DNA from: a bacterium
GTDB lineage: Bacteria > Patescibacteriota > Minisyncoccia > Phycocordibacterales > VMEP01
Assembly (NCBI GenBank): GCA_030699625.1
Contig: JAUYLU010000070.1
Coordinates: 1 to 17,553, forward strand
Direction: 5' to 3'
DNA: 17,553 nucleotides
The notes under the pieces were generated by a model, which saw nothing but the letters and a program-made list of their open reading frames with translations, ran no database searches and was not told where the DNA came from. Made by a program: the position numbers and the translations under genes. This document shows, piece by piece, positions 1-17,553 of this stretch; positions within the stretch are counted from its first letter, which is position 1, and the number at the start of each line of letters is the position of its first letter.

Positions 1-25
1 CGTGTCTGTCACCCACGATTACTTG

Positions 26-96
26 TTGCGGGGGGCCGATTCGAACGGCCGCCTCAAGGTTATGAGCCTTGTGACCTACCACTGGTCCACCCCGCG
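26..96 (-). tRNA. Initiator tRNA-fMet (anticodon CAT)
   Basis: The reverse strand folds into a complete 71-nt cloverleaf: acceptor CGCGGGG/CCCCGCA, D stem GACC/GGTC, anticodon stem CAAGG/CCTTG around loop CTCATAA (anticodon at 62-64), a 4-nt variable loop, and T stem GGCCG/CGGCC with loop TTCGAAT. Two features mark it as the initiator rather than elongator Met or Ile2: position 1 (C) is unpaired with position 72 (A), as transformylase recognition requires, and the D stem has A11:U24 instead of the usual Y11:R24. The anticodon stem has AGG/CCU, so only two of the three classical G:C pairs are present. No CCA is encoded; the discriminator A is followed by CAA. Partial copies of the gene lie just upstream (132-149, 174-201, 278-294). 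Confidence 0.93.
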
Positions 97-131
97 ATAT
101 GATTTTCAAGCTACTCGTTCCGGATTGCAAG

Positions 132-149
132 AGGCTCATAACCTTGAGG
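132..149 (+). repeat. Inverted copy of the tRNA-fMet anticodon arm
   Basis: These 18 nt are the exact reverse complement of 52-69, which covers most of the anticodon arm of tRNA-fMet. In a minus-strand precursor this segment would lie 5' of the tRNA and could pair with the whole anticodon arm over 18 bp. It sits between the tRNA and the truncated direct copy at 174-201. Function is unknown. Confidence 0.8.
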
Positions 150-173
150 TTATTCGCGCTATTGTCTCCTTTG

Positions 174-201
174 GACCTACCACTGGTCCACCCCGCGATA
201 T
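174..201 (-). repeat. Truncated duplicate of the tRNA-fMet 5' end
   Basis: These 28 nt are identical to 73-100, which hold the D arm, the 5' acceptor strand and 4 nt of 5' flank of tRNA-fMet, in the same orientation. A shorter third copy of 17 nt matches 84-100 and lies at 278-294. Neither copy continues into an anticodon or T arm, so neither is a functional tRNA. They may be scars of recombination or insertion at the tRNA 5' end, or remnants of tandem duplication. Confidence 0.85.
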
Positions 202-205
202 TAAT

Positions 206-233
206 AACTTACAACTGACAACTTACAACATAA
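206..233 (+). repeat. Heptamer array A, AACTTAC-like, four units
   Basis: Four consecutive 7-nt units are visible: AACTTAC (206-212), AACTGAC (213-219), AACTTAC (220-226) and AACATAA (227-233). It has the same 7-bp period and a composition similar to the arrays in the pilin region (GACAACC type), but lies between two partial tRNA copies in non-coding DNA. Confidence 0.75.
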
Positions 234-246
234 GGAACACCACTTC

Positions 247-279
247 CCTGCCTGCCGCGACGTCCGCGGCGCAGGCAGG
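247..279. repeat. GC-rich hairpin with CCTGCCTG/CAGGCAGG arms
   Basis: CCTGCCTG (247-254) followed by CCGC pairs with GCGG (266-269) and CAGGCAGG (272-279), with a 2-nt bulge and the 7-nt loop GACGTCC. The right arm runs straight into the third partial tRNA copy (278-294). There is no clean T run on either side, so an intrinsic terminator is not supported. A REP-like palindrome or RNA-processing structure is possible. Confidence 0.7.
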
Positions 280-321
280 TCCACCCCGCGATATGCTTTC
301 AATTTTCCTCTCCTCCTAAAG

Positions 322-340
322 AAAAAACGCTGAAAAGCGT
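322..340 (-). terminator. Possible short intrinsic terminator after the HEPN-like gene
   Basis: On the minus strand ACGCT-TTTC-AGCGT is followed directly by TTTTT and then CTTT, the form of a rho-independent terminator, 40 nt past the stop of the upstream gene. The stem is only 5 bp, and a good promoter lies immediately upstream (347-375), so it may instead be a 5' hairpin or attenuator of the tRNA transcript. Confidence 0.45.
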
Positions 341-346
341 GCCGAA

Positions 347-375
347 AGTATACAAAAGCAGGCGGCAAAAGGCAA
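347..375 (-). promoter_or_regulatory. Candidate sigma70-type promoter upstream of tRNA-fMet
   Basis: On the minus strand TTGCCT (370-375) is separated by exactly 17 nt from TATACT (347-352). It lies between the stop of the HEPN-like gene and the tRNA region, so it would transcribe the partial tRNA copies and tRNA-fMet. The predicted start, near 340, coincides with the small hairpin at 322-340, which makes early termination or attenuation conceivable. The other 97-321 sequence holds only the repeats listed separately. Confidence 0.45.
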
Positions 376-380
376 CCGCG

Positions 381-1013
381 CTAGATGAAATGAAATTCGC
401 GGAAGACTTCCTCGTAGAGATTGACTATGCGCCGCGCTTCGCGCTGGGAGAGGACGAACGAGCCCTCGTGGGCGATGCGGTTCCGCACCTTGTGCGCCTC
501 CCAGGCGCTCTGGATGCTCGAAAAATCCGAGGGTTCGACCGCCATGAGCCGCTCGCCCAAATTCTCGCCGCGGAAGCCCATGCGCCGCACCATGTCGTCG
601 AGCATGTTGTCGGCCTCGAGGACGGCGAGCTTCCAATCGGAGGGATTCGCGGAATTGACGCGCTCCTCTACGACGGGCCAGCGGTCGTCCTTCGGCGTCG
701 CTTCGGGCGGCGTCGCCACGATGCGGCTGAGCTCGCGCTCCTCTTCTTTCCGGAGCTCATAGAGGCGTATCGAGCAGTAGATGATGACGGTGATGAAGAA
801 AATGGCGAAGATGGAAAGCACGCCCTTCAGCGTGAAAAGGAAGGGGGAGATGCCGGCGGCGGCGCCCGAAAGCTCCTCCGCTCCGCCGGGAAGCCCGCCG
901 CCAAAGAGATAATGGTCGGCTACCCTGTACAGCCACTCCCAAAATTCGTAGACCTGGAGAAAAAGGTAGTCTACGTTCAAAAAACGCGGCTCGAACGGTT
1001 TTTCGAATTGCAT
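381..1013 (-). CDS. Single-pass membrane protein with C-terminal HEPN/DUF4145-like domain
   Basis: A 210-residue protein. An N-terminal segment rich in aromatic residues (1-55) precedes one strong membrane helix (about 60-83), a charged juxtamembrane helix (about 84-97), a Pro-rich linker, and a mostly helical C-terminal domain (about 125-210). That domain contains R177-N-R-I-A-H182, which matches the R-x4-6-H signature of HEPN RNases, in the position expected between a helix bearing AVLEADNMLDDMV and a final helix. HEPN or DUF4145-like domains often act as RNases in toxin or defence contexts or as binding modules. Here the protein follows gatA by 28 nt, has no recognisable antitoxin partner, and may be a conserved CPR membrane protein of unknown role. 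The fold assignment is motif-based inference. ATG at 1013 is preceded by a weak AAGAAG. Confidence 0.75.
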   Translation of the reverse strand: MQFEKPFEPRFLNVDYLFLQVYEFWEWLYRVADHYLFGGGLPGGAEELSGAAAGISPFLFTLKGVLSIFAIFFITVIIYCSIRLYELRKEEERELSRIVATPPEATPKDDRWPVVEERVNSANPSDWKLAVLEADNMLDDMVRRMGFRGENLGERLMAVEPSDFSSIQSAWEAHKVRNRIAHEGSFVLSQREARRIVNLYEEVFREFHFI

Positions 1014-1028
1014 CGCTTCTTATTGAAA

Positions 1029-1034
1029 AGTATA
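1029..1034 (-). promoter_or_regulatory. Candidate -10 box for the HEPN-like gene
   Basis: TATACT on the minus strand lies in the 28-nt gap between the gatA stop and the next ATG, 16 nt before that ATG. The hexamer 17 nt upstream (GTTCGA) is a poor -35, so this call is weak. It would give a very short 5' UTR. Confidence 0.3.
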
Positions 1035-1041
1035 CAACGGT

Positions 1042-2454
1042 TTACCGTTCCTCGAACGCCTTGCCGATATCAAAAAGGGCGCGGTCGGCGCGGTAGGGCG
1101 CGATGAGCTGGAGCGAGAGCGGGAGCCCCTCCGCGCTTTTCCCGGACGGGACGGAGAGGGCGGGGAGGCCCGCGAGGTTTGCCGGCACGGTGAAGATGTC
1201 CTCGAGATACATCGAGAGCGGGTCTTTGGCCTTTTCCCCTATCATGAACGCGGGGCTCGGCGTCGTCGGCGTGGCGATGGCGTCGACGTGCCTAAACGCC
1301 TCTTCGAAATCGCGCTTGATGCGCCCGCGGGCGCCCATGGCCTTCCCATAATAGGCGTCGTAATAGCCCGCCGAGAGCACGTAGGTGCCGAGCAGGATGC
1401 GGCGGCGCGTCTCTTTGCCGAACCCCTCGCCCCTCGTCTTCATATAGGTCGCGAGCAAATCGCCGCCTTTTACGCGCTCGCCGTAGCGGACGCCGTCGTA
1501 GCGCGCGAGGTTCGCCGAAACTTCGGCGGGCATGATGATGTAGTAGGCGGCAAGCGCGTACCGCGCGTGCGGAAGCTCGATCTCCTTTATTGAAAATCCT
1601 TTCGCCTCGAGCCGCCCGAGCGACTCTTTGAAATTCGAGAGCGTTCCCTTGTCCACTCCCTCGCTCTCGACGAAGGCCTTCGGCACGCCGATGGCTTTCG
1701 TTTTTCCTCCGGCGCGCGCCCGCATCGCGTCGGGAAGCGAGGTGCTGTCGAAAGAATCGTGCCTCGCGATGACGTCGAAGATCGTCTCCGCGTCCTCGAC
1801 GGTCTTCGCGAAAGGCCCTATCTGGTCGAGCGAGCTTCCCATGGCCATGAGCCCGAACCGCGAGACCATGCCGTAGGTGGGCTTCATGCCGACCACGCCG
1901 CAGAACGCGGCGGGCTGCCTGATGGAGCCGCCGGTGTCGGAGCCGAGCGCCCCGAGGGCGCCGCCCATGGCGACTGCGGCGGCCGAACCGCCCGACGAAC
2001 CGCCGGCCACGCGGGCGGGGTCATGCGGGTTCTTCGTCACGCCGAACGCGGAGTTCACGGTGGACGAGCCCATGGCAAATTCGTCCATGTTGGTGCGGCC
2101 GAGCACGATCGCTCCCGCCTCTTTCAGGAGCTTCACGGCCGTGGCGTCGTACGTGGCCCGGTAGCCCGAGAGGATTTTCGAGGCGGCGCTCGCGACCTTC
2201 CCCTTCGAAAGGATATTGTCCTTGAGAGCGAGCGGGATGCCAGCAAGCGGGCCCGCCGTCCTCGTCTTGAGCTTCCTGTCCGCCTCCTTCGCGGCGGCGC
2301 GGGCGTCGTCGAACACTTCGAGGTAGGCGTTCAGTTCGCCGTTTTTCTTTTCCACTTCCTTGAGGCACGCCTCGGTGAGCTCGAGCGCGGAGAGCTCTCC
2401 CCCCGCGAGAAGCTCCCGGGCGTGCCGTATGGTGAGCATGCCAAGGTCGTTCAT
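1042..2454 (-). CDS. gatA: Asp-tRNA(Asn)/Glu-tRNA(Gln) amidotransferase subunit A
   Basis: A 470-residue amidase-signature protein. The Ser-cisSer-Lys catalytic triad is visible: K78 in ALKDN, S153 in the GGSSGGSAAA block (151-160) and S177 in GSDTGGSIRQP (171-181). GatA frees ammonia from glutamine and channels it to GatB, which amidates Glu-tRNA(Gln) or Asp-tRNA(Asn). Full family length. The ATG overlaps the gatC stop as ATGA (2451-2454), so translation is coupled to gatC. gatB is not in the window and must lie elsewhere. Other amidases are possible on sequence alone, but pairing with gatC makes GatA secure. Confidence 0.96.
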   Translation of the reverse strand: MNDLGMLTIRHARELLAGGELSALELTEACLKEVEKKNGELNAYLEVFDDARAAAKEADRKLKTRTAGPLAGIPLALKDNILSKGKVASAASKILSGYRATYDATAVKLLKEAGAIVLGRTNMDEFAMGSSTVNSAFGVTKNPHDPARVAGGSSGGSAAAVAMGGALGALGSDTGGSIRQPAAFCGVVGMKPTYGMVSRFGLMAMGSSLDQIGPFAKTVEDAETIFDVIARHDSFDSTSLPDAMRARAGGKTKAIGVPKAFVESEGVDKGTLSNFKESLGRLEAKGFSIKEIELPHARYALAAYYIIMPAEVSANLARYDGVRYGERVKGGDLLATYMKTRGEGFGKETRRRILLGTYVLSAGYYDAYYGKAMGARGRIKRDFEEAFRHVDAIATPTTPSPAFMIGEKAKDPLSMYLEDIFTVPANLAGLPALSVPSGKSAEGLPLSLQLIAPYRADRALFDIGKAFEER

Positions 2455-2729
2455 AGCACTTGGTCCACTTTGATGTAATCGCCTTCCCGCTCGGGCGCTC
2501 CGGCGAGCAGCTCTTCCGACGTGGCGAGCGGGCGCTTGTACGGCACGTCGTCGCGCATGACATTCCGAAGTTCTCCTGCCGCGTGCGGAGGTTCGGCGTC
2601 CGCAAGTTCCCGGATTTCGCCCACGTAGCCCAAAATCGACTTGAGGTCTTCGAGAAGCCCTTTCTTTTCTTCGTCGGAAATCTCGATGCGCGAGAGCGCG
2701 GCGAGCCGTTCGATATCCTCCTTCTTCAT
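2451..2729 (-). CDS. gatC: Asp/Glu-tRNA amidotransferase subunit C
   Basis: A 92-residue protein from the ATG at 2729 (MKKEDIERLAALSRIEISDEE), typical in length and start for GatC, the small subunit that wraps around and stabilises GatA-GatB. An in-frame ATG at 2750 would add seven residues. The shorter start is preferred because it aligns with the family and because the motif CTTCTAATGGG abuts this ATG exactly as related motifs abut the pilB and pilM starts. The last bases overlap gatA by ATGA. Upstream lies the 111-bp inverted-repeat element. No canonical Shine-Dalgarno sequence is seen. Confidence 0.92.
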   Translation of the reverse strand: MKKEDIERLAALSRIEISDEEKKGLLEDLKSILGYVGEIRELADAEPPHAAGELRNVMRDDVPYKRPLATSEELLAGAPEREGDYIKVDQVL

Positions 2730-2839
2730 CCCATTAGAAGTTCGGTGCATACAGTACTTTTACCATTAAAGAAGCCGCGAGGCGACTTCGCATGGAAACC
2801 TTCAGTATGAAACAAGTTCTCGGTGAGCTTCTAACGGGA
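2729..2839. repeat. 111-bp inverted-repeat element upstream of gatC
   Basis: The left arm TCCCATTAGAAGTTC (2729-2743) and right arm GAGCTTCTAACGGGA (2825-2839) are inverted copies with two mismatches, one a G:U pair in RNA. Transcribed toward gatC, the 3' arm ends on the A of the gatC ATG. The element is flanked by TTCA on both sides (2725-2728 and 2840-2843), which could be a 4-bp target duplication or chance. The interior has no clear promoter or ORF. The remaining gap to the ligA stop (2840-2863) holds nothing recognisable. Confidence 0.7.
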
Positions 2840-2863
2840 TTCATGCGGGTCATCGTAGCAGAA

Positions 2864-4885
<2,022 letters not shown>

Positions 4886-4888
4886 TTA

Positions 4889-4894
4889 CCCTCC
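4889..4894 (-). promoter_or_regulatory. Strong ligA ribosome-binding site inside an inverted-repeat arm
   Basis: The minus strand reads TTTAGGAGGGTAAACTATG. AGGAGG is a perfect Shine-Dalgarno at good spacing. The same bases form the 3' arm of a 15-bp perfect inverted repeat, whose 5' arm (CCCTCCTAAATTTTT on the minus strand, 4981-4995) would fully base-pair with and hide the site in any transcript reading through from the pilin genes. Confidence 0.8.
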
Positions 4895-4914
4895 TAAATT
4901 TTTAGAATAAATAG

Positions 4915-4943
4915 ATTCTATCGGTAGTCGTGGTTTTATCCAA
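4915..4943 (-). promoter_or_regulatory. Candidate ligA promoter
   Basis: On the minus strand TTGGAT (4938-4943) is followed after 17 nt by TAGAAT (4915-4920). The predicted start near 4908 would produce an mRNA with the ribosome-binding site but without the upstream pairing arm at 4981-4995. Confidence 0.4.
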
Positions 4944-4995
4944 TACATCCCGGGAAAGTGCAATTTTGCAATAAATGGTGAAAAATTTAGGAGGG

Positions 4996-5529
4996 CTAGT
5001 ACACGATGCGGATGGCGCGCTCGACGCGGCGCGGGTCCGCGGTATTGCACGTATTGAACCCTTCCGACTCGATCTTGGTGCTTTCGCCGAACTTGGCGAC
5101 CGTCACGATGACGCAGTGGGTCGCGGTATCGATGTCGAAGGTGGTGGTGGCGGCGCTCCCCGTGCGCACCACCGAATCGAACGGCATGATGGAGACGCCG
5201 CCGCAGGAGGCCGCCCCGCCGTAGAGGGCGCTGTCGCTCGAGGTCGGGAAAATGCCTTGCTTCGCGTCCCAGAAGAGCGCGCATTCGGCGCCGCTGTCGG
5301 CGGCATAGAAGGCAAACTGGGATTCCCGCCCCGACGAGGCGAGGATAGACTGCTTCAGGATGAGATTGAACACGGCAAGGCCGATGGCGAGGAGGATGCC
5401 CGAGAGAAGGACGGCGAACGGCAGGATGAAACCGCGGGCAGGCGTTAGGCTATAGGAATTAGGCTTTAGGTTTCGCCCCTGTTTTACCAAATTGCTTTTA
5501 TTTCCTATTAATTTTATATTTTTGCTCAT
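4996..5529 (-). CDS. GspK/PilX-like minor pilin
   Basis: A 177-residue prepilin. A long leader (1-33) ends in ARG|F34, the predicted PilD cleavage site, followed by a hydrophobic helix (34-58) and the segment FYAADSGAECALFW, which I associate with CPR PilX-like pilins. The mature protein lacks Glu at +5 (FILPF), a feature of GspK-type tip subunits. It is the last of four minor pilins (H-, J-, I-, K-like), so the set probably forms the fibre-tip initiation complex. The leader residues NLKPNSYSLTP are translated directly from a heptamer array (5436-5470). A second array of opposite sense lies just before the ATG, so the start region could fold on itself. No classical Shine-Dalgarno is seen apart from AGG/GGGG within that array. 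Confidence 0.82.
   Translation of the reverse strand: MSKNIKLIGNKSNLVKQGRNLKPNSYSLTPARGFILPFAVLLSGILLAIGLAVFNLILKQSILASSGRESQFAFYAADSGAECALFWDAKQGIFPTSSDSALYGGAASCGGVSIMPFDSVVRTGSAATTTFDIDTATHCVIVTVAKFGESTKIESEGFNTCNTADPRRVERAIRIVY
5436..5470 (+). repeat. Heptamer array B (NNNNAGG x5) inside the GspK-like leader
   Basis: Five exact 7-nt units ending in AGG: GGGCAGG, CGTTAGG, CTATAGG, AATTAGG, CTTTAGG. The array is coding on the opposite strand and supplies leader residues up to the prepilin cleavage site. Confidence 0.85.
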
Positions 5530-5538
5530 TTTTTATTC

Positions 5539-5573
5539 CCTAACCCCTAGCGCCTAATTTCCTAATTCCTGCC
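5539..5573 (+). repeat. Heptamer array C (CCTANNN) just upstream of the GspK-like gene
   Basis: CCTA or CCTG repeats start at 5539, 5546, 5553, 5561 and 5568 (spacing 7, 7, 8, 7). The array occupies the 46-nt gap between the GspI-like stop and the GspK-like ATG. Its sense is opposite to array B; GGAATTAGG here, read on the minus strand, is exactly complementary to CCTAATTCC in array B. Confidence 0.82.
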
Positions 5574-5575
5574 CG

Positions 5576-6202
5576 TTATTGCCAGTTGAAGACCGACTCC
5601 TTGAGAACGAAGCTCTTGGTGAGCGTCCCGTTCGCCCACAGCATCTCGACCTCGATGCGCAGTTCGTTCGCGTTCGGATCGCCCGACGGCTCGTAATACA
5701 TTTTAATGGTGCGGCGGAACGGCGTCTCGTTCCCGTCCTGGTAATTGTAGAGGCCGGCGCTGTCCTGCCGGAGATATTCGCAGGTCGACCCGCATGCCGC
5801 GATGGTGTTCCATTTCGCATCGATACTGCAGCCGTTCGGGTTGTTGGCGACGAGACAGTCGCGGATGCCCGGCGGATTCGAAGTGCCGGGGTTCGCCTTG
5901 AAGGTGGCCCACGTCGAGCCGGCGAGCGTCACGTTGTCGCGCTTGCTCCGGATGAACTCGATGGCCTCCTGGGCGAGATAGAAGGCGGTGACCTGGTCTC
6001 TCGTATAGTTCGCAAAGAAGAACCCCTTCGCCACGATGGAGAGCGGGCCGACGATGGCGGTGATGAGCACGAAGGTGGCCACGAGCGTCTCGATGAGGGT
6101 GAAGCCCCGAGACGACCGACAACCAACAACTGACAACTGTGCACCGGAACCCGGGACATTATCGTTGTTCGTCGTGGGTTGTGTGTTGTCAGTTTTCATC
6201 AT
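5576..6202 (-). CDS. GspI/PilV-like minor pilin
   Basis: A 208-residue prepilin. The ATG at 6202 overlaps the stop of the preceding pilin (ATGA), so translation is coupled; a second ATG follows at 6199. A 33-residue leader ends SSRG|F34TLIE, with Glu at +5, followed by a hydrophobic helix and YLAQEAIEFIRSKRDN, characteristic of GspI/PilV-type minor pilins. Several Cys residues in the C-terminal domain may form disulfides. The leader is almost entirely encoded by an 87-bp cassette of opposed heptamer repeats (6111-6197) that also forms the leader of the GspH-like pilin. An upstream extension of this reading frame to 6553 runs through the GspJ-like gene in the wrong frame and is not credible. 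Confidence 0.87.
   Translation of the reverse strand: MMKTDNTQPTTNNDNVPGSGAQLSVVGCRSSRGFTLIETLVATFVLITAIVGPLSIVAKGFFFANYTRDQVTAFYLAQEAIEFIRSKRDNVTLAGSTWATFKANPGTSNPPGIRDCLVANNPNGCSIDAKWNTIAACGSTCEYLRQDSAGLYNYQDGNETPFRRTIKMYYEPSGDPNANELRIEVEMLWANGTLTKSFVLKESVFNWQ
6111..6197. repeat. 87-bp leader cassette D (opposed heptamer arrays)
   Basis: On the plus strand there are four GACAACC-like heptamers (6111-6138), a 24-nt loop with CCCGGG (6139-6162) and five NGTTGTN-like heptamers (6163-6197), giving a hairpin with a quasi-complementary stem. Same length and architecture as 7428-7514; the five-heptamer arms of the two copies match at 32 of 35 bases. It is translated in full as the prepilin leader. 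Confidence 0.88.
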
Positions 6203-6786
6203 GAGTCGAGGCGGCGCTGGGAAACTCCCGTCTGTATCGTGAACGTCGAGACGGTCCCCTTGAACGAGGCGGTTCCCGAGACCGAAATGGTGACCCGCGG
6301 CTGCTTCCCGTCGCCCGCCGCCGTGCCGGTCACGTAAAACGCGAGGGAGGTGATGGTAAGCTCTTCCGAGGTAAGGGGAAGGAAGCTCCCCGCGCCGCCC
6401 GAGGCAAGCGAGCGCTCGATCCGCCCGCCGGAGAGCCGATAGACGATCTGGTCGTCTGGATCCGAGGCGCTTCCTTTGTACCCCTCGAAGGCGATGGTAT
6501 TCTCGCCCGCCGGGCAATCGGCGGGCGAGGTGTACGCGCCCGTCGCTCCGCAATGGTACACCGTCCCCATGCGGAGATTCCTCGCCATGTTCTCCATGGC
6601 GAAATTAAGGTTGTCCATGACGGTGCGGGAGAGCTGGGCCCGCTTATTGGAATCGTTGATGGAGATGACCGCGCCGACGGCGACGAGCATGACGATGGAG
6701 AAGAGCGCCGTCGCCACCATTATCTCGACGAGCGTGAGGCCCCCTTGGGTAGTTTTCAGTCTGTAGTTTTTAGTTTTTAGTTCCAT
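6199..6786 (-). CDS. GspJ/PilW-like minor pilin
   Basis: A 195-residue prepilin with a 16-residue leader ending TQGG|L17, then L-T-L-V-E21 (Glu at +5) and a hydrophobic helix to about residue 42. The following SNKRAQLSRTVMDNLNFAMENMARNLRMG fits GspJ/PilW N-terminal helices, with an extracellular beta domain to the C-terminus. It is the second of the four minor pilins after pilD and is probably part of the tip complex. Leader residues ELKTKNYRLKTT come from heptamer array F. Upstream is a purine-rich array giving several GGAG ribosome-binding sites; GGAG about 8 nt before the ATG is well placed. Confidence 0.85.
   Translation of the reverse strand: MELKTKNYRLKTTQGGLTLVEIMVATALFSIVMLVAVGAVISINDSNKRAQLSRTVMDNLNFAMENMARNLRMGTVYHCGATGAYTSPADCPAGENTIAFEGYKGSASDPDDQIVYRLSGGRIERSLASGGAGSFLPLTSEELTITSLAFYVTGTAAGDGKQPRVTISVSGTASFKGTVSTFTIQTGVSQRRLDS
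6748..6782 (+). repeat. Heptamer array F (NNNAGTY x5) in the GspJ-like leader
   Basis: Five exact units: GGTAGTT, TTCAGTC, TGTAGTT, TTTAGTT, TTTAGTT. They are coding on the minus strand as the leader peptide, ending two bases before the start codon. Confidence 0.85.
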
Positions 6787-6788
6787 TT

Positions 6789-6830
6789 CCTAACTCCTTG
6801 CTCCTGCCTCATTACTCCTCTCTCCTGATT
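6789..6830 (+). repeat. Heptamer array G (CCTNNCT x6), multiple Shine-Dalgarno-like sites
   Basis: Six exact 7-nt units: CCTAACT, CCTTGCT, CCTGCCT, CATTACT, CCTCTCT, CCTGATT. On the minus strand they read as repeated AGGAG, giving tandem ribosome-binding sites before the GspJ-like ATG (6786). The array fills the entire gap back to the stop of the GspH-like gene. Confidence 0.85.
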
Positions 6831-7516
6831 CATTCTATGGAGATCTGTCCGGTGCTCCAGACCACCACCGTCTTATATAAATCCTTCTGAGGAGGCTCGA
6901 CCGATATTTCCGCCTTTTGGTACGTGACGTCGGGCCCCGCCCCGTAGGTGCCGAGGATGTTCGCGTCGGGGTCGGGGCGGACGAAGGAAATGTTGAGATA
7001 GTCGAGCGGCCCTTCTCCCGCGGAAGGACTGGTGCAGTCACGCTGGCCGTTCGGCCGCACGGCGCAGATTTTCCGGAGCGAGTCCCCGCTCGCGATGGCC
7101 ACCTTCTCGAGGCACTCGGGCGACGACGAGCAGCTCCCGCTCACGTCGTACTTCTTGTTGTTGTTCGTGTCGGTGTAGAGGATGAACGAAAAAAGGTCGG
7201 CGCTCGTGAAGTAGACGCCGTATCCCGGGAACGCGCCCGAACCCGCGGTGGTCTCCTTGACCGAGAGGCCGTACACCTGCGCCTGCCTCACCTCGAGCGC
7301 CATGAGATGCGCGAGGTTCTGGATGGAGACCTTGTGGTTGAAGCCGGGATAGTTCGCGAGCACCATGGCGGAGATGAGCCCGAAGATGCCGATGACCACG
7401 AGAAGCTCGATGAGCGAAAAACCCCGAGACAACCGACAACCGACAACCGACAACCGTGCAGCGGAGCCCGGGCTATTGCCGTTGTTCGTTGTGGGTTGCA
7501 TGTTGTCAGTTTTCAC
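6830..7516 (-). CDS. GspH/FimT-like minor pilin
   Basis: A 228-residue prepilin from a GTG at 7516 that overlaps the pilD stop (GTGA), implying coupled translation; an ATG at 7501 is the alternative. The leader ends LSRG|F33SLIE with Glu at +5, followed by LLVVIGIFGLISAMVLANYPGF, matching FimT/GspH-type pilins. The C-terminal domain has four Cys (including CSSSPEC). Leader residues KTDNMQPTTNN to SVVGCR are encoded by the 87-bp cassette at 7428-7514, nearly the same as in the GspI-like pilin. A much longer reading frame to 8353 merely runs antisense-like through pilD in another frame and is rejected. Confidence 0.86.
   Translation of the reverse strand: MKTDNMQPTTNNGNSPGSAARLSVVGCRLSRGFSLIELLVVIGIFGLISAMVLANYPGFNHKVSIQNLAHLMALEVRQAQVYGLSVKETTAGSGAFPGYGVYFTSADLFSFILYTDTNNNKKYDVSGSCSSSPECLEKVAIASGDSLRKICAVRPNGQRDCTSPSAGEGPLDYLNISFVRPDPDANILGTYGAGPDVTYQKAEISVEPPQKDLYKTVVVWSTGQISIE
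7428..7514. repeat. 87-bp leader cassette E (opposed heptamer arrays)
   Basis: Four perfect GACAACC units (7428-7455), a 24-nt loop with CCCGGGC (7456-7479), then CGTTGTT, CGTTGTG, GGTTGCA, TGTTGTC, AGTTTTC (7480-7514). Same length, order and loop as the copy at 6111-6197. It runs from the coupled stop/start overlap of pilD and the GspH-like gene to just before the prepilin SRGF. Confidence 0.9.
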
Positions 7517-8316
7517 CACAGGCCGAGAAAGAAAAGCGAAAGCGAGGGGAAAAGAAAATCGGGGGGCACAAGGAGCGCGATTCCCGTCCCGAGCACGAGG
7601 AAGGGCGCGAAGGGAATTTCGCTCTTCATTGTAAAGCGTCTGCCCCGCAAAAACAATAAAACGGCCGCCACGGCGGCGCCCGTCCAGAAGGCGAAGAGGA
7701 ACGCCATGACGCTCCCCGCCGCGCCCAGAAGCCAGCCGAGGCCGAGGGCGAGCTTCGCGTCGCCGAGCCCCATCCATCTGCCTCCTGAAAGGAAGTAGAA
7801 GAGCGCGAAAGGAAGGGCGAGGGCGGGACCGGCGAGGAGCGCGGACGAAAGCGTTTCTCCCCCGATCGGGAAAAAGAACGGACGCGCGAGCGCAAGAAGC
7901 GCGAAGAGGTAGACCATGCCGTCGGGGATGACCATGTGCCGCAGGTCGTATGCGGCGATAATGACGAGAAGGGCGGCAGCAGCGAAAAGATAGAGCGTGA
8001 AGAGCGCGAGCGGCACTCCGCCGTAAAGGCCCGCCGCGTAGGCGTAGACGATAGCGAAAAAAATAGCGGTCGAGAGCTCGACCAGAGGATACTGCCACGA
8101 AAGCCGCGACTGGCACGAGGCGCAGCGGCCGCGGAGGAAGAGGAACGAAAGCACGGGAATCATCTCGTAGAAACGGAGCTCCTTCCCGCAATAGAGGCAC
8201 AACGACCTCCCGAAGAACGTCATGCCGGTGTGGTAGCGGAATACCACCACGTTCAAGAAACTCCCGATGACGGCGCCGAAGAGGAACGAAATAAGGACGA
8301 ACGGCTCTATATCCAT
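7513..8316 (-). CDS. pilD: Type IV prepilin leader peptidase / N-methyltransferase
   Basis: A 267-residue polytopic membrane protein. N-terminal GSFLNVVVFR (18-27) and two CxxC pairs (C40/C43 and C65/C68) form the zinc-binding cytoplasmic loop of the methyltransferase domain. The aspartyl protease pair is D124 (AAYDLRHMVIPD) and D186 in the GLGD motif. It cuts prepilins after Gly and methylates the new N-terminus, so it should process all five pilins in the window. It heads the minor-pilin operon and its stop overlaps the next start. Probable promoter 8325-8353 would start the mRNA only about 2 nt before this ATG, suggesting leaderless translation. Confidence 0.95.
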   Translation of the reverse strand: MDIEPFVLISFLFGAVIGSFLNVVVFRYHTGMTFFGRSLCLYCGKELRFYEMIPVLSFLFLRGRCASCQSRLSWQYPLVELSTAIFFAIVYAYAAGLYGGVPLALFTLYLFAAAALLVIIAAYDLRHMVIPDGMVYLFALLALARPFFFPIGGETLSSALLAGPALALPFALFYFLSGGRWMGLGDAKLALGLGWLLGAAGSVMAFLFAFWTGAAVAAVLLFLRGRRFTMKSEIPFAPFLVLGTGIALLVPPDFLFPSLSLFFLGLW

Positions 8317-8324
8317 ATATTGGA

Positions 8325-8353
8325 ATTATATGCGCCATGAACATATATCCCAA
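8325..8353 (-). promoter_or_regulatory. pilD promoter, TTGGGA-17-TATAAT
   Basis: On the minus strand TTGGGA (8348-8353) and a perfect TATAAT (8325-8330) are separated by 17 nt. The -10 box ends 9 nt before the pilD ATG, so the mRNA should begin 0-3 nt from the start codon. The -35 overlaps the base of the terminator hairpin at 8352-8387. Confidence 0.65.
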
Positions 8354-8387
8354 ACGAAAAAACCCCTGCTCGGGGGTTTTTTCGTTT
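8352..8387. terminator. Bidirectional intrinsic terminator after the major pilin
   Basis: AAACG-AAAAAA-CCCC (8352-8366) pairs perfectly with GGGG-TTTTTT-CGTTT (8373-8387), with a 6-nt loop. A-tract and T-tract on the two sides give a terminator readable in both directions. It lies 40 nt past the major pilin stop on the minus strand and separates that gene from pilD. Confidence 0.9.
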
Positions 8388-8427
8388 CTGCGTCAGTCCG
8401 CGTGAAATCCGCGATAGTGTCCGCGTC

Positions 8428-8883
8428 CTAGGGCTTCACGTCGTAGATGGGGTCGGTGCCTGCCGCGTCCGTACCGCCGCCGGTGCAGACCGTGCCTGCC
8501 GCCGCGTCCGCATCGTTGTCGTCGAGGGTGTTCGGGTCCTGCTCAAGCGTCGCCCACATGTGGTACGACGAGCAGGTCGAGCCCGAACCGAGCGCCGCGT
8601 AGCCGTACGGCACTCCCGTGGAGGGATCGTTCGGGATGGCCGAAATGTATCCCGGCGTCACTAGGTTCGCGGTCGAAAGCGCCAGGGGGTAATTCCTGTT
8701 CGCGTCGTAATAGAGCTCGAGCGCGAGCTGGAGCTGTTTCAGGTCCGCCACCCGACGCGCGTCGCGCGATTTCATGCGGGCGCTGTTCAGGGAGGCGAGC
8801 ACCACCGACGACAGGATGCCGATGATGGCGATGACGACCAGAAGTTCGATAAGGGTAAAACCTCGTTTAGTATTTCTACTCAT
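8428..8883 (-). CDS. Probable major type IV pilin
   Basis: A 151-residue prepilin from the ATG at 8883 (MSRNTKRGFTLIE). The short basic leader is cut after G8, leaving F9-T-L-I-E13 with Glu at +5 and a classical LLVVIAIIGILSSVVLASL helix. The region DARRVADLKQLQLALELYYDANRNYP is typical of major pilins and G-type pseudopilins, and two Cys near the C-terminus may form a disulfide loop. An in-frame ATG 42 nt upstream (8925) would add 14 residues that fit no leader pattern. Unlike the four minor pilins, its leader contains no repeat array. Its own extended -10 promoter (8938-8946) and strong terminator suggest a separate, highly expressed unit, which supports the major-pilin call. Confidence 0.88.
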   Translation of the reverse strand: MSRNTKRGFTLIELLVVIAIIGILSSVVLASLNSARMKSRDARRVADLKQLQLALELYYDANRNYPLALSTANLVTPGYISAIPNDPSTGVPYGYAALGSGSTCSSYHMWATLEQDPNTLDDNDADAAAGTVCTGGGTDAAGTDPIYDVKP

Positions 8884-8937
8884 AAGCTTGCGTTGTATAA
8901 GGGGTAAAACGACCATTGTCTTCAACAGCTCTTTTAA

Positions 8938-8946
8938 AGTATAGCA
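8938..8946 (-). promoter_or_regulatory. Extended -10 promoter of the major pilin
   Basis: TGCTATACT on the minus strand fits TGnTATAAT with one mismatch. No -35 match 17 nt upstream. The predicted start near 8931 gives a 5' UTR of about 48 nt. Confidence 0.55.
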
Positions 8947-8985
8947 GGGGCGACGGAAGAGAGGGGCGGAGGGTTATCCACATTG

Positions 8986-9020
8986 AATCAGGCGTTAGAA
9001 GTTAGGCGTTAGGAGCTAGG
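8986..9020 (+). repeat. Heptamer array H (NNNNAGG/A x5)
   Basis: Five exact units: AATCAGG, CGTTAGA, AGTTAGG, CGTTAGG, AGCTAGG. It lies in the 239-nt gap between pilC and the major pilin gene, non-coding. It faces array I of opposite sense about 70 nt away; between them is a small hairpin CCGCA/TGCGG (about 9061-9080). Confidence 0.82.
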
Positions 9021-9092
9021 GAATGCAGAAGAAATTACAGACTTAATGACCGCAAATTGCCCGCAAGCTAAAAACTGCGGAGCGGCCTTCTT

Positions 9093-9116
9093 CCTAGTCT
9101 CCTAATCCCCTAATCG
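9093..9116 (+). repeat. Repeat array I (CCTANNNN), just past pilC
   Basis: Three 8-nt units CCTAGTCT, CCTAATCC and CCTAATCG begin 7 nt from the pilC stop. The period is 8 here rather than 7. With array H it forms a TTAGG...CCTAA inverted pair, the same arrangement as arrays B and C. Confidence 0.7.
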
Positions 9117-9122
9117 CTACCC

Positions 9123-10331
9123 TTAGATTCCGCCCGCGATGTTGTAGATAGGCACGAGGACCGAGGTGAGGAGAAGGCCGACGCCGAGGCCGAGGAGGAC
9201 GATGAGCACGGGCTCGATGAGGCCGACGAGCGTGTCGACGGCGTTTTCCACTTCCCGGCGATAGAACTTGGCGAGCGTTTTCAGGATGAAGCCGAGCTCG
9301 CCCGTCTCCTCGCCCACCTTCACCATTTGGACCATGATGGCGGGAATGTGGACCGGATAGCGCGAGAAGGCGTCGGACACGGCGCTTCCCCCTTTGACGA
9401 GCTCCTGCACGTCGCGGAGGAGGTTCTCGTACACCCTGTTGTCGACGACGCTTGCGGTGATCTCCACCGCGCGGAGCATCGAGATGCCGGAACCAAGCAT
9501 GGTGTCCATGTTGTCGGCGATGCGGGAGAGATAGAGCTTCCGATAAAGGTCGGACACGTACGGGATGGAGAGCTTCAGGCTGTCGAAATAGAGCCGCCCC
9601 CCTTCCGAGCCGCGGAGCCTCCACAGATAGAGGCCCGCCACCACGAGGATGACGAGGAAGAAGATGCCGTAATCGATGAGGAACTGGCTCATCCCCACCA
9701 CGATCTTGGTATAGAAGGGAATGTCCTGGCCCGATTCGACGAGGATGGCGGAGAGCTTCGGGATGACGAGGGTGAGCATGAGCACCATGACCGCGATGAA
9801 AGTGACGACGACGAACACCGGGTAGATAAGGGCGTTCCGCGTTTTCACCGTGAGCTCGTACGAGCGGTCAAGATAGTCCGCGAGGAAGAGAAAGGTCTCA
9901 TTGAGCTTCCCCGACTCCTCGCCGGCGCGCACCATATTGACGTAAAAGGCGGAGAAAATATCGGGATGTTTCCCGAGCGCCCCCGAAATGGGGACGCCCG
10001 CCTGCACGTCGTCGGCGATTTGGGAAAGCTTTTCCCGAAGGAGCAGGTTCTCCGATTCGCCGCCGAGGAGACGGAAGGCCTTGACGGCGGAGACCTGCGC
10101 TTCAAAGAGCGTCGAGATTTGGCGCGAGATGATGACGACGTCCTTGAGCGAGACCCGCTCGAAGAGCGAGAAATTCCGCTCGAAGAACGGCTTTTCGTCC
10201 TCTTCGGCGACGGAGACGATGATGAGGTTCCGCCGCTGGAGCGCGAGGATGGCGAGGTCCTTCGAGGGCGCGTCGATGATGCCCTCGGTCTCCTTGCCGC
10301 TCGCCTCGATCGCTTTGTACTTGAAGACCAT
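9123..10331 (-). CDS. pilC: Type IV pilus inner-membrane platform protein PilC
   Basis: A 402-residue protein of normal length with the N-terminal FKYKAIEASGKETEG segment and two T2SS-F domains (about 65-187 and 268-390), each with the conserved GEESGKL / GEETGEL element (136-143 and its repeat). Hydrophobic helices lie at about 168-192, 212-237 and 365-392. PilC is the platform through which the PilB and PilT motors add or remove pilin subunits. It starts 6 nt after the pilT stop, within the same operon, without an obvious Shine-Dalgarno. Confidence 0.96.
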   Translation of the reverse strand: MVFKYKAIEASGKETEGIIDAPSKDLAILALQRRNLIIVSVAEEDEKPFFERNFSLFERVSLKDVVIISRQISTLFEAQVSAVKAFRLLGGESENLLLREKLSQIADDVQAGVPISGALGKHPDIFSAFYVNMVRAGEESGKLNETFLFLADYLDRSYELTVKTRNALIYPVFVVVTFIAVMVLMLTLVIPKLSAILVESGQDIPFYTKIVVGMSQFLIDYGIFFLVILVVAGLYLWRLRGSEGGRLYFDSLKLSIPYVSDLYRKLYLSRIADNMDTMLGSGISMLRAVEITASVVDNRVYENLLRDVQELVKGGSAVSDAFSRYPVHIPAIMVQMVKVGEETGELGFILKTLAKFYRREVENAVDTLVGLIEPVLIVLLGLGVGLLLTSVLVPIYNIAGGI

Positions 10332-10337
10332 GGAGGA

Positions 10338-11399
10338 TTAGATGAGGCGCTCGAGCCCCTTGGGGTTCAGCGAATAGGCATGGGCATCCTCGATGGAAAT
10401 CTCGCCACGGCGGACGAGGTCGACGAGCGAGCGGTTCATGTCGACCATGCCCTGCTCGAAGCCGGTTTCGATGACGATGTCGATCTCCTGCGTCTTCCGC
10501 TCGCGGATGAGGTTCGCCACCGCCTTGTTGTTGATGAGGAGCTCGTAGGCGGGAATGAGGCCTCCCGAAACGCGCTTGATGAGGCGCTGGGAAAAGATGC
10601 CGATGAGCGAGCCCGCGAGCTGGAGGCGGATCTGCTCCTGCTGTCCCGCCGGGAACGAGTCGATGATGCGGTCGATGGTCTGGGAGGCGTTATTGGTGTG
10701 AAGCGTCGAGAGAACAAGGTGCCCAGTCTCGGCGGCGGTCACCGCGGTCGACATGGTTTCGGGGTCGCGCATCTCGCCGATCATGATGACGTCGACGTCC
10801 TGCCGGAACGAACGGAGGAGAGCGCTGTGGAAATCCTTGGTGTCGATGCCCACCTCGCGCTGATCGATGATGGACTGCCGCGGCTCGAACACGTACTCGA
10901 TGGGGTCCTCGATGGTGACGATGTGCTCCTTGCGCTCGCGGTTGATGAGGTCGATCATGGCGGCGAGCGTCGTCGATTTGCCCTGCCCCACCGGGCCGAC
11001 CACGAGGAAGAACCCCTGCTTCTTCTGGGCGAACGCCTCGATGATGGGCGGCAGGTTGAGCTCCTTCACGTCCTTGATCTTCGGAATGAGGCGCAGCGCG
11101 ATGCCCGCCATGCCGCCGTGGAAGAAGGCGTTCCCCCTGAGACGCGCCGTGCCCTTGAAACTGTACGAAAAATCGACTTCCTGCGTTTCGAGGAACGATT
11201 TGTATTTTTCCTCCGACAGGAGCTCTTTCAAAATGCCAAGCGCGTCCTCTTTCGAATACGGCGCGCGCTTCGCGAGCGTCACGAGCTCGCCGGTGACGCG
11301 CACGGACGGCGGGCGGCCCGCCGAGATGTGGAGGTCGGACCCGCCCTCCCTGACGACGGTGGTAATGAGCTCTTCCACTTCTTTTTTATAGTCGGTCAT
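10338..11399 (-). CDS. pilT: Type IV pilus retraction ATPase PilT
   Basis: A 353-residue hexameric secretion ATPase. Start SDLHISAGRPPSVR (21-34) is typical of PilT. Walker A is GPVGQGKSTT (135-144), a variant of GPTGSGKSTT that keeps the essential GKS. The Asp box IEDPIEY (163-169), Walker B with VIMIGEMRDPET (204-215) and the His box HLVLSTLHTNNA (227-238) are all present. The C-terminal region LIRERKTQEI corresponds to the AIREGKTHQI motif of retraction ATPases. The ATG overlaps the response regulator stop (ATGA). Confidence 0.95.
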   Translation of the reverse strand: MTDYKKEVEELITTVVREGGSDLHISAGRPPSVRVTGELVTLAKRAPYSKEDALGILKELLSEEKYKSFLETQEVDFSYSFKGTARLRGNAFFHGGMAGIALRLIPKIKDVKELNLPPIIEAFAQKKQGFFLVVGPVGQGKSTTLAAMIDLINRERKEHIVTIEDPIEYVFEPRQSIIDQREVGIDTKDFHSALLRSFRQDVDVIMIGEMRDPETMSTAVTAAETGHLVLSTLHTNNASQTIDRIIDSFPAGQQEQIRLQLAGSLIGIFSQRLIKRVSGGLIPAYELLINNKAVANLIRERKTQEIDIVIETGFEQGMVDMNRSLVDLVRRGEISIEDAHAYSLNPKGLERLI

Positions 11400-11788
11400 T
11401 TGTTTTTTCCCATGATGTCGAGTACGTGCATGATCACTTCCGAAGGCGTGGCGGAGGCCTTGACGATGTAGCCCGCGGCGCCGAGCTCCTTGCCCCGTTC
11501 AATGTCGGACTGTTGGCCGCGGTTCGAAAGGACGATCTTCGCCGCCTGCGGCGCGAGACCCTCCTTGTTGATGGCGGCGAGGAGCTCGAAGCCGTCCATC
11601 TTCGGCATCACCACGTCGAGGAGGATGATGTCGGGCGCGAGGCCGCGGCGGAGGGCGTCGAGCGCGAAATCAGGGCCGAGCGCCGTGTGGACGTCGAAGC
11701 CCGATTCGCTGAACTTGAGGGCGTACATGTCGATGAGGAAATTATCGTCGTCAACGATGAGTATGGTGTTTTTCTTCCCGTCCGCCAT
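11396..11788 (-). CDS. Single-domain response regulator (CheY/PilG-like) in the pilus operon
   Basis: A 130-residue stand-alone receiver domain. Acidic pocket D13-D14-D15, phospho-acceptor D58 (IILLDVVMPKMDG), S88 (IVLSNRG) in the Thr/Ser switch position and K110 (YIVK) are all present, so it should be phosphorylatable. There is no output domain. It lies between pilB and pilT, overlapping pilT by 4 nt, so it may tune motor activity or twitching direction as PilG/PilH do; that role is inference. No histidine kinase is in the window. An extended -10 promoter (11797-11805) sits 9 nt before the ATG. Confidence 0.92.
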   Translation of the reverse strand: MADGKKNTILIVDDDNFLIDMYALKFSESGFDVHTALGPDFALDALRRGLAPDIILLDVVMPKMDGFELLAAINKEGLAPQAAKIVLSNRGQQSDIERGKELGAAGYIVKASATPSEVIMHVLDIMGKNK

Positions 11789-11796
11789 GTGTGTTC

Positions 11797-11805
11797 AGTA
11801 TACCA
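11797..11805 (-). promoter_or_regulatory. Extended -10 promoter before the response regulator
   Basis: TGGTATACT on the minus strand matches TGnTATAAT with one mismatch, in the 35-nt gap after pilB. Its -10 box ends 9 nt before the ATG, the same spacing as at pilD, implying a leaderless mRNA. No -35 hexamer. Confidence 0.5.
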
Positions 11806-11823
11806 ATAGAAAACGAGCCGTCC

Positions 11824-13532
<1,709 letters not shown>

Positions 13533-13533
<1 letters not shown>

Positions 13534-13635
13534 CCCATTAGAAATTAAGACTCATAACGTGCTGTTTTTAGGGCTGTTCGACCTTTGTATGCATTATTTT
13601 TGGGAGACATACGCTTTTGTGAATTTCTAACGGGA
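13533..13635. repeat. 103-bp inverted-repeat element upstream of pilB
   Basis: TCCCATTAGAAATT (13533-13546) and AATTTCTAACGGGA (13622-13635) are 14-bp inverted arms with one mismatch that is G:U in RNA. On the minus strand the 3' arm ends on the A of the pilB ATG. The interior contains GTATG...CATAC and a weak TTCACA-19-AATAAT but no clear promoter. The remaining gap to the next gene (13636-13728) is GC-rich with CGGGCCCG; I see no terminator or ORF in it. Confidence 0.75.
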
Positions 13636-13728
13636 CAAGTCCTTGTTATTTGTTTTTGACCGCGGCCCCTGGCAGGACTCATGCGATTGAAATGTGAGGC
13701 ACCGGGCCCGTGGCGCCGGTACGGCGGC

Positions 13729-14049
13729 CTATTGCGCGGCGGGCTCTTCGACGCCGATGGGCGCGAACGGGTTCCCCCGGCCGGTGACGCCCGAATCGGG
13801 AAGGATGACGGAAAAATCCTGAAGATTCTCGAAGAGGGGCGACGAGAAGACCTCCTCGTCGAGCCTGATGTTGTTCAAGGAAAGGAGCACGGTAAGAAGC
13901 TCCCTTCCCTTCACGTCCTGCGCGGAGAGAAGCGGGGTCTCGGACACGAGGGGCGATGTGGGCGGCCCCGATTTCAAGAAAAAGGAGTAGACGAAGAAGG
14001 CCGCGACGAGGGCGAGGACCGAGAACAGGATTTTGCGCGTGCGCGTCAT
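13729..14049 (-). CDS. Small T4P alignment-complex protein, PilP-position
   Basis: A 106-residue protein with an N-terminal membrane helix (about 7-25), a linker rich in Pro and Ser, a helical segment DVKGRELLTVLLSLNNIRLDEEVFSSPLFENLQDF (given here as residues 45-79 by position, ending NLQDF) and the C-terminal motif NPFAPIG (93-99). It starts 4 nt after the pilO stop, in the place where Proteobacteria carry pilP, but it has no lipobox and no visible PilP beta domain. I recognise it as the small protein that follows PilO in CPR pilus clusters. Its role as a PilN/O partner is inferred from position. Confidence 0.8.
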   Translation of the reverse strand: MTRTRKILFSVLALVAAFFVYSFFLKSGPPTSPLVSETPLLSAQDVKGRELLTVLLSLNNIRLDEEVFSSPLFENLQDFSVILPDSGVTGRGNPFAPIGVEEPAAQ

Positions 14050-14053
14050 GGGT

Positions 14054-15222: not shown

Positions 15223-15238
15223 CCGCTGTGCTTCTTTT

Positions 15239-15247
15239 ATTTTACCA
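15239..15247 (-). promoter_or_regulatory. Weak extended -10 before pilN
   Basis: TGGTAAAAT on the minus strand resembles TGnTATAAT (TAAAAT, one mismatch), 17 nt before the chosen pilN ATG. No -35. It could add transcription within the pilM-pilO operon. Confidence 0.3.
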
Positions 15248-15313
15248 CGCAGAAAGGCCGTCGGGCGCCGCGTGGCGGGCATATGGGGAAAAGCGGCGTC
15301 CAGGCGCGGCGCG

Positions 15314-16444: not shown

Positions 16445-16454
16445 CCTGTTAGAG

Positions 16455-16495
16455 ATAGGGAACGCGTGCTCTACGAACAGAGGGCGTTTCCCTAT
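16455..16495 (-). promoter_or_regulatory. Leader hairpin of pilM
   Basis: ATAGGGAACGC (16455-16465) pairs with GCGTTTCCCTAT (16484-16495) with one bulged base, extended by CTCT/AGAG around a 6-nt loop. Its base is 10 nt before the pilM ATG, separated by CTCTAACAGG. There is no T tract, so a translational or mRNA-stability role is more likely than termination. Confidence 0.65.
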
Positions 16496-16540
16496 GATTA
16501 ATTTTAAAATTCTTTCTCATTTTTATATCGGGCGTTCCCG

Positions 16541-16648: not shown

Positions 16649-16651
16649 TCT

Positions 16652-16680: not shown

Positions 16681-16685
16681 ATCCT

Positions 16686-17444: not shown

Positions 17445-17446
17445 TC

Positions 17447-17512: not shown

Positions 17513-17533
17513 AATTAGAAAAAGCATGTGGGC

Positions 17534-17539: not shown

Positions 17540-17553
17540 AAAGTGCCTTCACT

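Follow-up and report, generated by a model that had tools for sequence, protein, structure and literature searches.

Short degenerate tandem arrays of period seven at gene junctions and in prepilin leaders of a Patescibacteriota genome

Tandem repeats with a unit of seven nucleotides are known from several bacteria, and include the short tandemly repeated repetitive (STRR) sequences of Cyanobacteria as well as the heptamers of tRNA-Leu introns. In most genomes, heptanucleotides are reported to be the commonest class of long simple sequence repeats (Mrazek et al. 2007, as cited in PMC4692102 and PMC4679880), an excess for which slippage linked to a 7-nt polymerase contact was proposed in the same work. 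The closest described systems are the GGGAATC/(GGGANTN)n heptamers of Xanthomonas and the GGGGA(C/T)T heptamers of Nostoc (Rehm et al. 2015, PMC4692102), and the direct TAACTGA repeats of Beggiatoaceae, some Cyanobacteria and Bacteroidetes (MacGregor 2015, PMC4679880). These two papers already propose slippage at heptamers, and describe degenerate intergenic heptamers with inverted pairs on the one hand and heptamers over the ribosome-binding sites of Beggiatoaceae on the other; between two Cyanothece strains, indels were reported to be mostly in 7-nt increments (PMC4679880). Here we describe arrays of 7-nt units around the type IV prepilin genes of a 17,553-nt stretch of DNA (the window; GenBank assembly GCA_030699625.1, contig JAUYLU010000070.1, positions 1 to 17,553), which is one complete contig (C6) of a draft genome of the Patescibacteriota (G000; 73 contigs, 571,296 bp, completeness 87.8%). 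The best 80 of 346 PilC loci (58-67% identity) include, as relatives carrying names, Candidatus Nomurabacteria and allied groups such as Kaiserbacteria, Campbellbacteria and Adlerbacteria, in keeping with a place of G000 in the Patescibacteria. No description of such arrays in this phylum was found among the titles and abstract beginnings listed for open-licence papers. An earlier note on the window, made from its letters alone, had known of no described element of this kind; such heptamers are published for Xanthomonas, Nostoc, Beggiatoaceae, Cyanobacteria and Bacteroidetes.

All 11 stretches listed in that note exceed chance (p 0.0005-0.004, each against 2000 dinucleotide shuffles of the stretch itself with 6 flanking bases), 5539-5573 being the weakest (p 0.004), and the periods given for them, 7 in ten stretches and 8 in 9093-9116, were borne out. 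The stretches had originally been chosen by eye; the unbiased test is a scan of the whole genome, for which 68 contigs (558,164 bp) were used after exclusion of the all-N contigs C25, C26, C53, C55 and C72 (13,132 bp). At the chosen threshold the scan returned 84 lag-7 segments, compared with 11, 5, 14, 4, 8 and 2 segments at the control lags of 4, 5, 8, 10, 11 and 13, and with a mean of 4.2 lag-7 segments (range 2-7) in ten shuffles of the genome inside 500-bp blocks. Unit length 7 is therefore over-represented in G000 (84 segments against 2-14 at the control lags), as it is among bacterial intergenic heptanucleotide repeats. Lags 6, 9 and 12 are also raised (41, 41 and 49 segments), mostly in coding sequence (38, 32 and 46), as codon structure would give, and 14 and 21, being multiples of 7, are harmonic lags. 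Of the 84 lag-7 segments, 64 are mostly intergenic according to a crude codon model made for this analysis, by which the coding fraction of the genome is 0.786. Chance and base composition are excluded as the source of the arrays by the local-shuffle tests together with the genome-wide shuffles, and an element specific to pilins is excluded since the arrays occur genome-wide.

Within this genome-wide feature the pilin cluster stands out by its density: the region 5436-9116 holds 4 segments where 0.53 would be expected from the remaining genome (p 0.002), which makes it about 7 times denser. That only 4 segments pass the genome-wide threshold in this region is due to the weakness of several of the noted arrays. 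The earlier note had described the arrays as surrounding the pilin genes, and had named a lag-7 scan of the rest of the genome as the test that could refute its claim; the arrays are not tied to pilins, and the scan gives a split answer, with the remaining genome also far above its shuffles and this region enriched further. Its suggestion of a common generating process is reasonable, since one period is common to many different units genome-wide. The description of the units as unrelated does not hold within the window, where they are mostly reverse complements or copies of one another.

The arrays share with the Xanthomonas repeats the period of 7, a degenerate unit with conserved positions and a mostly intergenic placement (89-93% intergenic in Xanthomonas); as with the arrays considered here, most Xanthomonas repeats lie between the same genes in two species and differ in length and sequence (PMC4692102). 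They differ in that Xanthomonas has a single G-rich unit per organism, capable of forming G-quadruplexes (PMC4692102), while G000 has many A/T-rich units, and (GGGANTN)2 is found on neither strand of its 68 contigs. The presence of arrays in prepilin leaders is a further difference from the Xanthomonas repeats. With the Beggiatoaceae repeats the arrays have in common an AACT-type heptamer on the sense strand, just before start codons, where Shine-Dalgarno (SD) motifs are scarce; there the unit is exact and BOGUAY has one indirect repeat in 169 sets (PMC4679880), whereas here the units are degenerate and inverted pairs are frequent. TAACTGA occurs four times in tandem in the relatives G038 and G136, and not even as a tandem pair in G000.

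Within the genome, among junctions with spacers of -30 to 400 nt, an array is present at 33 of the 288 co-directional ones, at 3 of the 32 divergent ones and at 2 of the 35 convergent ones, with no significant preference for co-directional junctions (33/288 against 5/67 for the other two kinds together, Fisher p 0.51). The 33 array-bearing co-directional spacers retain a median of 10 nt once the array span is subtracted, compared with a median of 51 nt for array-free ones, and their arrays lie at median distances of 3 nt from the stop and 7 nt from the start. The order of the type IV pilus genes is conserved in the 12 loci inspected, which makes the junctions comparable across loci; these were counted for spacers of -60 to 500 nt, the control being the mean array count at lags 5, 8, 10 and 11. 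Between PilT and PilC an array is present in 11 of 80 loci (control 1.5), with a median spacer of 88 nt where it is present and 10 nt where it is not. Between RR and PilT the figures are 5 of 70 loci (control 0.5) and 92 nt against 6 nt. Arrays were also counted at PilM-PilN (5/59 loci, control 0.75), PilO-PilP (2/58, control 1.75), PilP-PilB (2/59, control 0) and PilB-RR (1/62, control 0.5), and none at PilN-PilO (0/62), LigA-GatC (0/15), GatC-GatA (0/18) or GatA-HEPN-like (0/14). The units at orthologous junctions are mostly different between species, evidence against a shared ancestry of the arrays found there. From these orthologous-junction counts, and likewise from the all-set partner, prepilin-leader, period-7/8 segment, orientation and unit-sharing counts given below, low-complexity segments were dropped; segments longer than 60, 70 or 110 nt were dropped in the column-variation, all-set partner, own-genome junction, orientation and unit-sharing analyses.

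Eight of the 11 arrays in the window form four reverse-complement pairs (5436/5539, 6111/6163, 7428/7480 and 8986/9093), and 6111-6197 and 7428-7514 are copies of a single element. As RNA, the four pairs fold into stems in which short helices alternate with small internal loops (fold z of -3.01, -1.81, -2.90 and -2.01, respectively, with 2, 9, 2 and 7 of 200 shuffles folding equally well), while the two arrays of a fifth element, 6748-6830, do not pair (z +0.73). Across G000, an inverted partner with a score of at least 12 was found within 130 bp for 21 of 81 arrays, compared with 2, 3 and 0 of 81 for reversed, complement and direct controls; arrays less than 130 bp from a contig end were omitted (3 of 84 in this genome, 5 of 208 over all sets). 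Close convergent inverted pairs are also a property of the Xanthomonas repeats (PMC4692102). Over all array sets the corresponding figures are 42 of 203 against 12, 13 and 11 for the controls, and this analysis, when split, gives 18 against 2 of 61 for the own genome and 15 against 3 of 85 for the other loci. Among 38 pairs of adjacent arrays, 17 are inverted, 4 direct and the others neither, with gaps of 13-86 bp between inverted neighbours; a fixed handedness of the hairpin was not borne out (10 keto-left against 7 amino-left).

One hairpin encodes the leaders of three prepilins of this genome, two of them in the window (5576-6202 and 6830-7516) and the third on another contig (locus L010, C2). 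The three leader cassettes align throughout (121 DNA columns, mean column identity 86%), and the mature parts of the same proteins are hardly alignable. By Pfam, both window prepilins have the N-terminal methylation motif, and the protein from C2 matches no family. The cassette of prepilin 5576-6202 codes its first ~33 residues, as far as the RGFTLIE site, and that of 6830-7516 folds into a ladder hairpin with helices of 5-6 bp separated by small internal loops. Two other arrays are coding on the minus strand: 6748-6782 encodes the leader MELKTKNYRLKTTQGG of prepilin 6199-6786, and 5436-5470 encodes part of the N-terminal stretch, a putative leader, of the open reading frame (ORF) 4996-5529, for which a Pfam search gave no match. 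In 22 of 214 prepilin-like ORFs of the loci examined, a lag-7 array occurs within the 130 nt that precede the cleavage site, some of these arrays falling outside the leader itself; at lags 5, 8, 10 and 11 the numbers are 4, 4, 12 and 5. At random places an array is found in 1.5% of cases at lag 7 and 0.2% at lag 10, so lag 10 is raised near prepilin leaders too.

The features of the window are collected in Table 1. The array 206-233 lies near a tRNA-Met gene (25-96, minus strand), and the tRNA is the sole match to Rfam in the window at gathering score; the loci of four relatives gave no credible Rfam match. The array 5539-5573 is the spacer that separates prepilin ORF 5576-6202 from ORF 4996-5529. 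The array 8986-9020 is found in the spacer with prepilin 8428-8925 on one side and PilC (9123-10331) on the other, and its partner 9093-9116 directly adjoins the pilC stop codon, on its 3' side.

Table 1. Arrays and leader cassettes of the window (p values from local shuffles)
Feature	Position	Strand	Evidence
heptamer array, AACTTAC/TACAACT type	206..233	+	lag-7 identity 0.81, local shuffle p 0.0005
left arm of inverted pair, unit NNTTAGG	5436..5470	+	p 0.001; pairs with 5539-5573
right arm, unit CCTAANN	5539..5573	+	p 0.004; pairs with 5436-5470 in fold
left arm of leader cassette, unit GACAACN	6111..6139	+	p 0.0005 for 6111-6138
right arm of leader cassette 6108..6202, unit GTTGTNN	6163..6197	+	p 0.001
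leader cassette, hairpin element of prepilin 5576-6202	6108..6202	-	fold z -1.81; cassette alignment
array TAGTTTT	6748..6782	+	p 0.0005
array, unit CTCCTNN, upstream of prepilin 6199-6786	6789..6830	+	p 0.002
perfect array (GACAACC)4, left arm of second leader cassette	7428..7456	+	lag-7 identity 1.00; TRF 100% matches
right arm of second leader cassette	7480..7514	+	p 0.0015
second leader cassette, prepilin 6830-7516	7425..7517	-	fold z -2.90; cassette alignment
left arm, unit NNTTAGG	8986..9020	+	p 0.0005; folds with 9093-9116
right arm CCTAATCN, period 8	9093..9116	+	lag-8 identity 0.81, p 0.0005

The arrays are spread in the phylum. Four repeats of the pattern ACT-N4 are present in 24 of 41 relatives and in 153 of the 286 genomes of a phylum sample, and the corresponding period-8 pattern (ACT-N5) in 62 of the same 286, the ACT pattern overlooking genomes that use other units. 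In 40 genomes picked for many period-7 or period-8 matches, 1786 matches (630 with the reversed control) were counted for period 7 and 248 (49) for period 8; the high control for period 7 could be due in part to TCA-type arrays, which may also exist. Periods 9 and 6 were rejected as further candidates, neither being in excess in these genomes (52 against a control of 98, and 40 against 70). Period-8 matches outnumber period-7 matches in 10 of the 40 genomes. In stretches selected for hits, lag-8 against lag-7 segments number 10 and 0 in G124, 5 and 0 in G092 and 3 and 0 in G281, and three genomes (G298, G113 and G099) have both periods with 7 predominant. Unselected stretches of G173 gave 1 and 0, as did 146 kb of G092, where 4 of 10 stretches are on contigs already known for matches, and G124 is the only firm case of a dominant period 8. 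The arrays of G124 (L185-L188, L205-L214) and G092 (L203) are degenerate, with units such as ACTRYTTC and ACTCTNNA, in a style like that of the period-7 arrays. A universal 7-nt polymerase contact does not predict period-8 arrays, and the dominance of period 8 in G124 and, by pattern counts, in other genomes of the phylum speaks against such a universal footprint.

Other repeats are present in the same genome. Dispersed elements, most of them 95-285 bp long, have the terminal inverted repeats CC(A/C/T)(A/G)TTAGA...TCTAA(C/T)(A/G/T)GG and lie, in all families compared, in intergenic stretches. Forty such terminal-inverted-repeat pairs were counted in G000, nested ones separately, some elements being nested within others; in the window they occur at 2730-2838, 13534-13634 and 16445-16647 (with a nested copy at 16542-16647). 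Versions of the form CCCGTTAGA...TCTAACGGG are present in 11 of 41 relatives, with up to 18 per genome and none for the reversed-pattern control, and, at the one spacing searched, the exact form CCTGTTAGA occurs in G000 alone among the 41. A perfect or nearly perfect palindrome, TATTCTCTAATTCG-NN-CGAATTAGAGAATA, is found in six places of the genome (C10, C16, C38, C67 and two in C68), and adjoins heptamer arrays at C10, C16 and C67. Finally, a heptamer-like run of the AACAGATAACGGATAAC/TTGTTATTTGTT type adjoins, or falls within, elements of one inverted-repeat family (window 13534-13660; L035 (C27) 4007-4208; L036 (C28) 2549-2696), which indicates that the two repeat classes are sometimes joined.

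Our preferred explanation, to which we give not far short of an even chance, is that replication slippage may extend a short seed by one unit per step, and that fold-back (template-switch) copying may at times add an inverted arm, which would yield a hairpin with a ladder-like stem. On this view the short, degenerate tandem arrays found across the genome would arise and turn over fast in short intergenic spacers, probably without strong function, and would persist where extra sequence is harmless, i.e. in stop-to-start spacers and in prepilin leader peptides, which are removed by cleavage; three prepilin genes carry copies of one hairpin as their leader cassette. In its favour are the excess of period 7, junctions that are filled in some loci and empty in others, the inverted partners, the folding of four of the five window elements, the leader cassettes on unrelated mature parts, and the lack of a significant association with reverse transcriptase or Y1 transposase. 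Slippage with fold-back copying accounts for most of the observations; it explains neither the genome-specific period nor the orientation bias nor the case of rsmA. Several results weigh against it. No change of unit number was directly observed, the closest pair among the 80 loci being 91.5% identical over 3.6 kb. In 165 kb of G124 that were not hit-selected, lag-8, lag-16 and lag-7 segments number 5, 4 and 1, and a period that differs between genomes is not predicted by a fixed slippage step. Palindromic sequence is tolerated within coding regions in the case of the Rickettsia palindromic elements, and the one coding array checked here, an AAAACTN array in the rsmA gene of L071 (C63, 1581-1615; NCBIfam TIGR00755), shows no gain of length. 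This array codes a variable loop immediately ahead of the conserved NIPYYIT motif, and in a protein alignment of this one gene with 9 homologues the region is ungapped, the sequence being replaced at unchanged length; this excludes an in-frame insertion in RsmA, and is not predicted by plain slippage. The likeness to Xanthomonas in inverted pairs does not extend to G027, where inverted partners are hardly above the control (9 against 7 of 57), and in G000 the excess of partners over the flanks of arrays elsewhere in the genome is weak (21 against 7 of 81, paired p 0.07), probably because arrays share unit types. Such sharing of units (at most one difference) concerns 14.5% of pairs within G000, compared with 8.8% and 6.6% between genomes and 8.1% for letter-shuffled units (12.4% within G027, 4.3% shuffled). 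Mismatches are also modestly concentrated in few columns (0.944 against 0.891, sd (standard deviation) 0.018, for 31 arrays of at least 28 nt with at least 3 mismatches, the control being simulated arrays that had likewise gone through the detector), which the copying of mutated units would give likewise; a stronger concentration in a first test (350 against 289, sd 10) was discarded as inflated, since the detector favours concentrated mismatches. The last points concern orientation: where an array lies no more than 30 nt ahead of a start, its sense strand shows ACT 41 times, AGT 16 times and neither 24 times, and where it lies no more than 30 nt past a stop, 22, 32 and 31 times (Fisher p 0.0011 for ACT/AGT at starts against stops, over G000, G027 and 88 other loci with genes called by the same crude codon model). 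The bias is present among partnerless arrays (ACT/AGT 26/10 at starts and 16/22 at stops, p 0.011), with 16/6 and 7/10 (p 0.059) for paired ones; this split keeps arrays overlapping genes, and its totals differ by one from the overall count. The ACT/AGT count is a second measure, picked after a keto/amino count in which the bias at starts is weak (amino-rich 18 against 11 for G000 and 10 against 12 for G027).

This orientation bias is what a selected role in translation, the main rival, would account for. Under it, the arrays would be RNA elements whose ACT-rich sense strand serves starts lacking an SD motif, for example with the repeated units as sites for S1 or cold-shock proteins, and whose paired arms uncouple or stabilise neighbouring messages. 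An SD-like motif precedes 2 of the 81 array-bearing starts and 190 of the 2131 other starts, although an array that fills the spacer removes the SD motif by itself; four of the five window elements fold with z of -1.8 to -3.0, but the fifth (6748-6830) does not, and 43 of 61 own-genome arrays have no partner at score 12. In Beggiatoaceae, the same placement with scarce SD motifs led to a proposal of translational regulation (PMC4679880). Since most orthologous operons do without an array (69 of 80 at PilT-PilC) and units differ between species, we consider such selection unlikely. Filled and empty orthologous junctions, near-identical leader cassettes at three loci, the sharing of units within a genome and the presence of further dispersed inverted-repeat elements in G000 would also be compatible with small mobile palindromic elements of the repetitive extragenic palindromic (REP/REPIN) or miniature inverted-repeat transposable element (MITE) kind inserting at gene junctions. 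Full-length alignment was however seen only for the leader cassettes, the others sharing at most a unit (non-cassette arrays were compared by unit alone, and the intergenic self-comparison was assessed for the largest families only), and we regard this origin as quite improbable. Neither does the distribution of candidate enzymes follow the arrays. G000 (87.8% complete) has one match to Y1 transposase and none to RVT_1; over 41 genomes, divided by hand from array counts into 16 array-rich and 25 others, Y1 transposase is found in 12/16 and 13/25 (Fisher p 0.195) and reverse transcriptase in 8/16 and 9/25, with no significant association, and the array-bearing G006, G011, G013 and G038 have no match to PF01797. 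Both were accordingly dropped as causes, and this also bears on the idea of a dedicated enzyme or template that writes units in fixed steps, 7 in most genomes and 8 in some. A genome-specific period, units shared within a genome and a conserved core with variable columns would suit such a writer; the co-occurrence of both periods in G298, G113 and G099, and of a period-8 arm at 9093-9116 in the window, would not, and we hold it to be highly improbable. A related reading, in which a novel lineage-specific generator (enzyme or template) writes the units at gene junctions, in steps of 7 nt in most array-rich genomes of the phylum and 8 in a minority, and folds back for the inverted arm, seems to us very unlikely. 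Least of all do we expect contingency loci, in which gain or loss of units switches pilin genes on and off (phase variation). Arrays do lie in and beside prepilin genes and seven is no multiple of three, but a shift of frame by unit gain or loss, as raised in the earlier note for coding arrays, is a side matter when 64 of 84 arrays are mostly intergenic and occur genome-wide, and degenerate units should slow slippage; this explanation is barely credible.

Compared with the heptamers already published, the present results add the spread of such arrays in the phylum, their recurrent gain at orthologous junctions, their capture in leaders, and the replacement of period 7 by period 8 in G124 and, judging from pattern counts, in other genomes. 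For the annotation of these genomes, the fusion of arrays to prepilin leaders accounts for leader peptides of unusual length and low complexity. The pilus junctions that are empty in some species and filled in others are ready before-and-after sites. A genome of the same phylum with another dominant period makes the polymerase-contact explanation of the heptamer excess testable, and if a lineage-specific generator were at work after all, the period would be a heritable property of that machine and not of the DNA polymerase.

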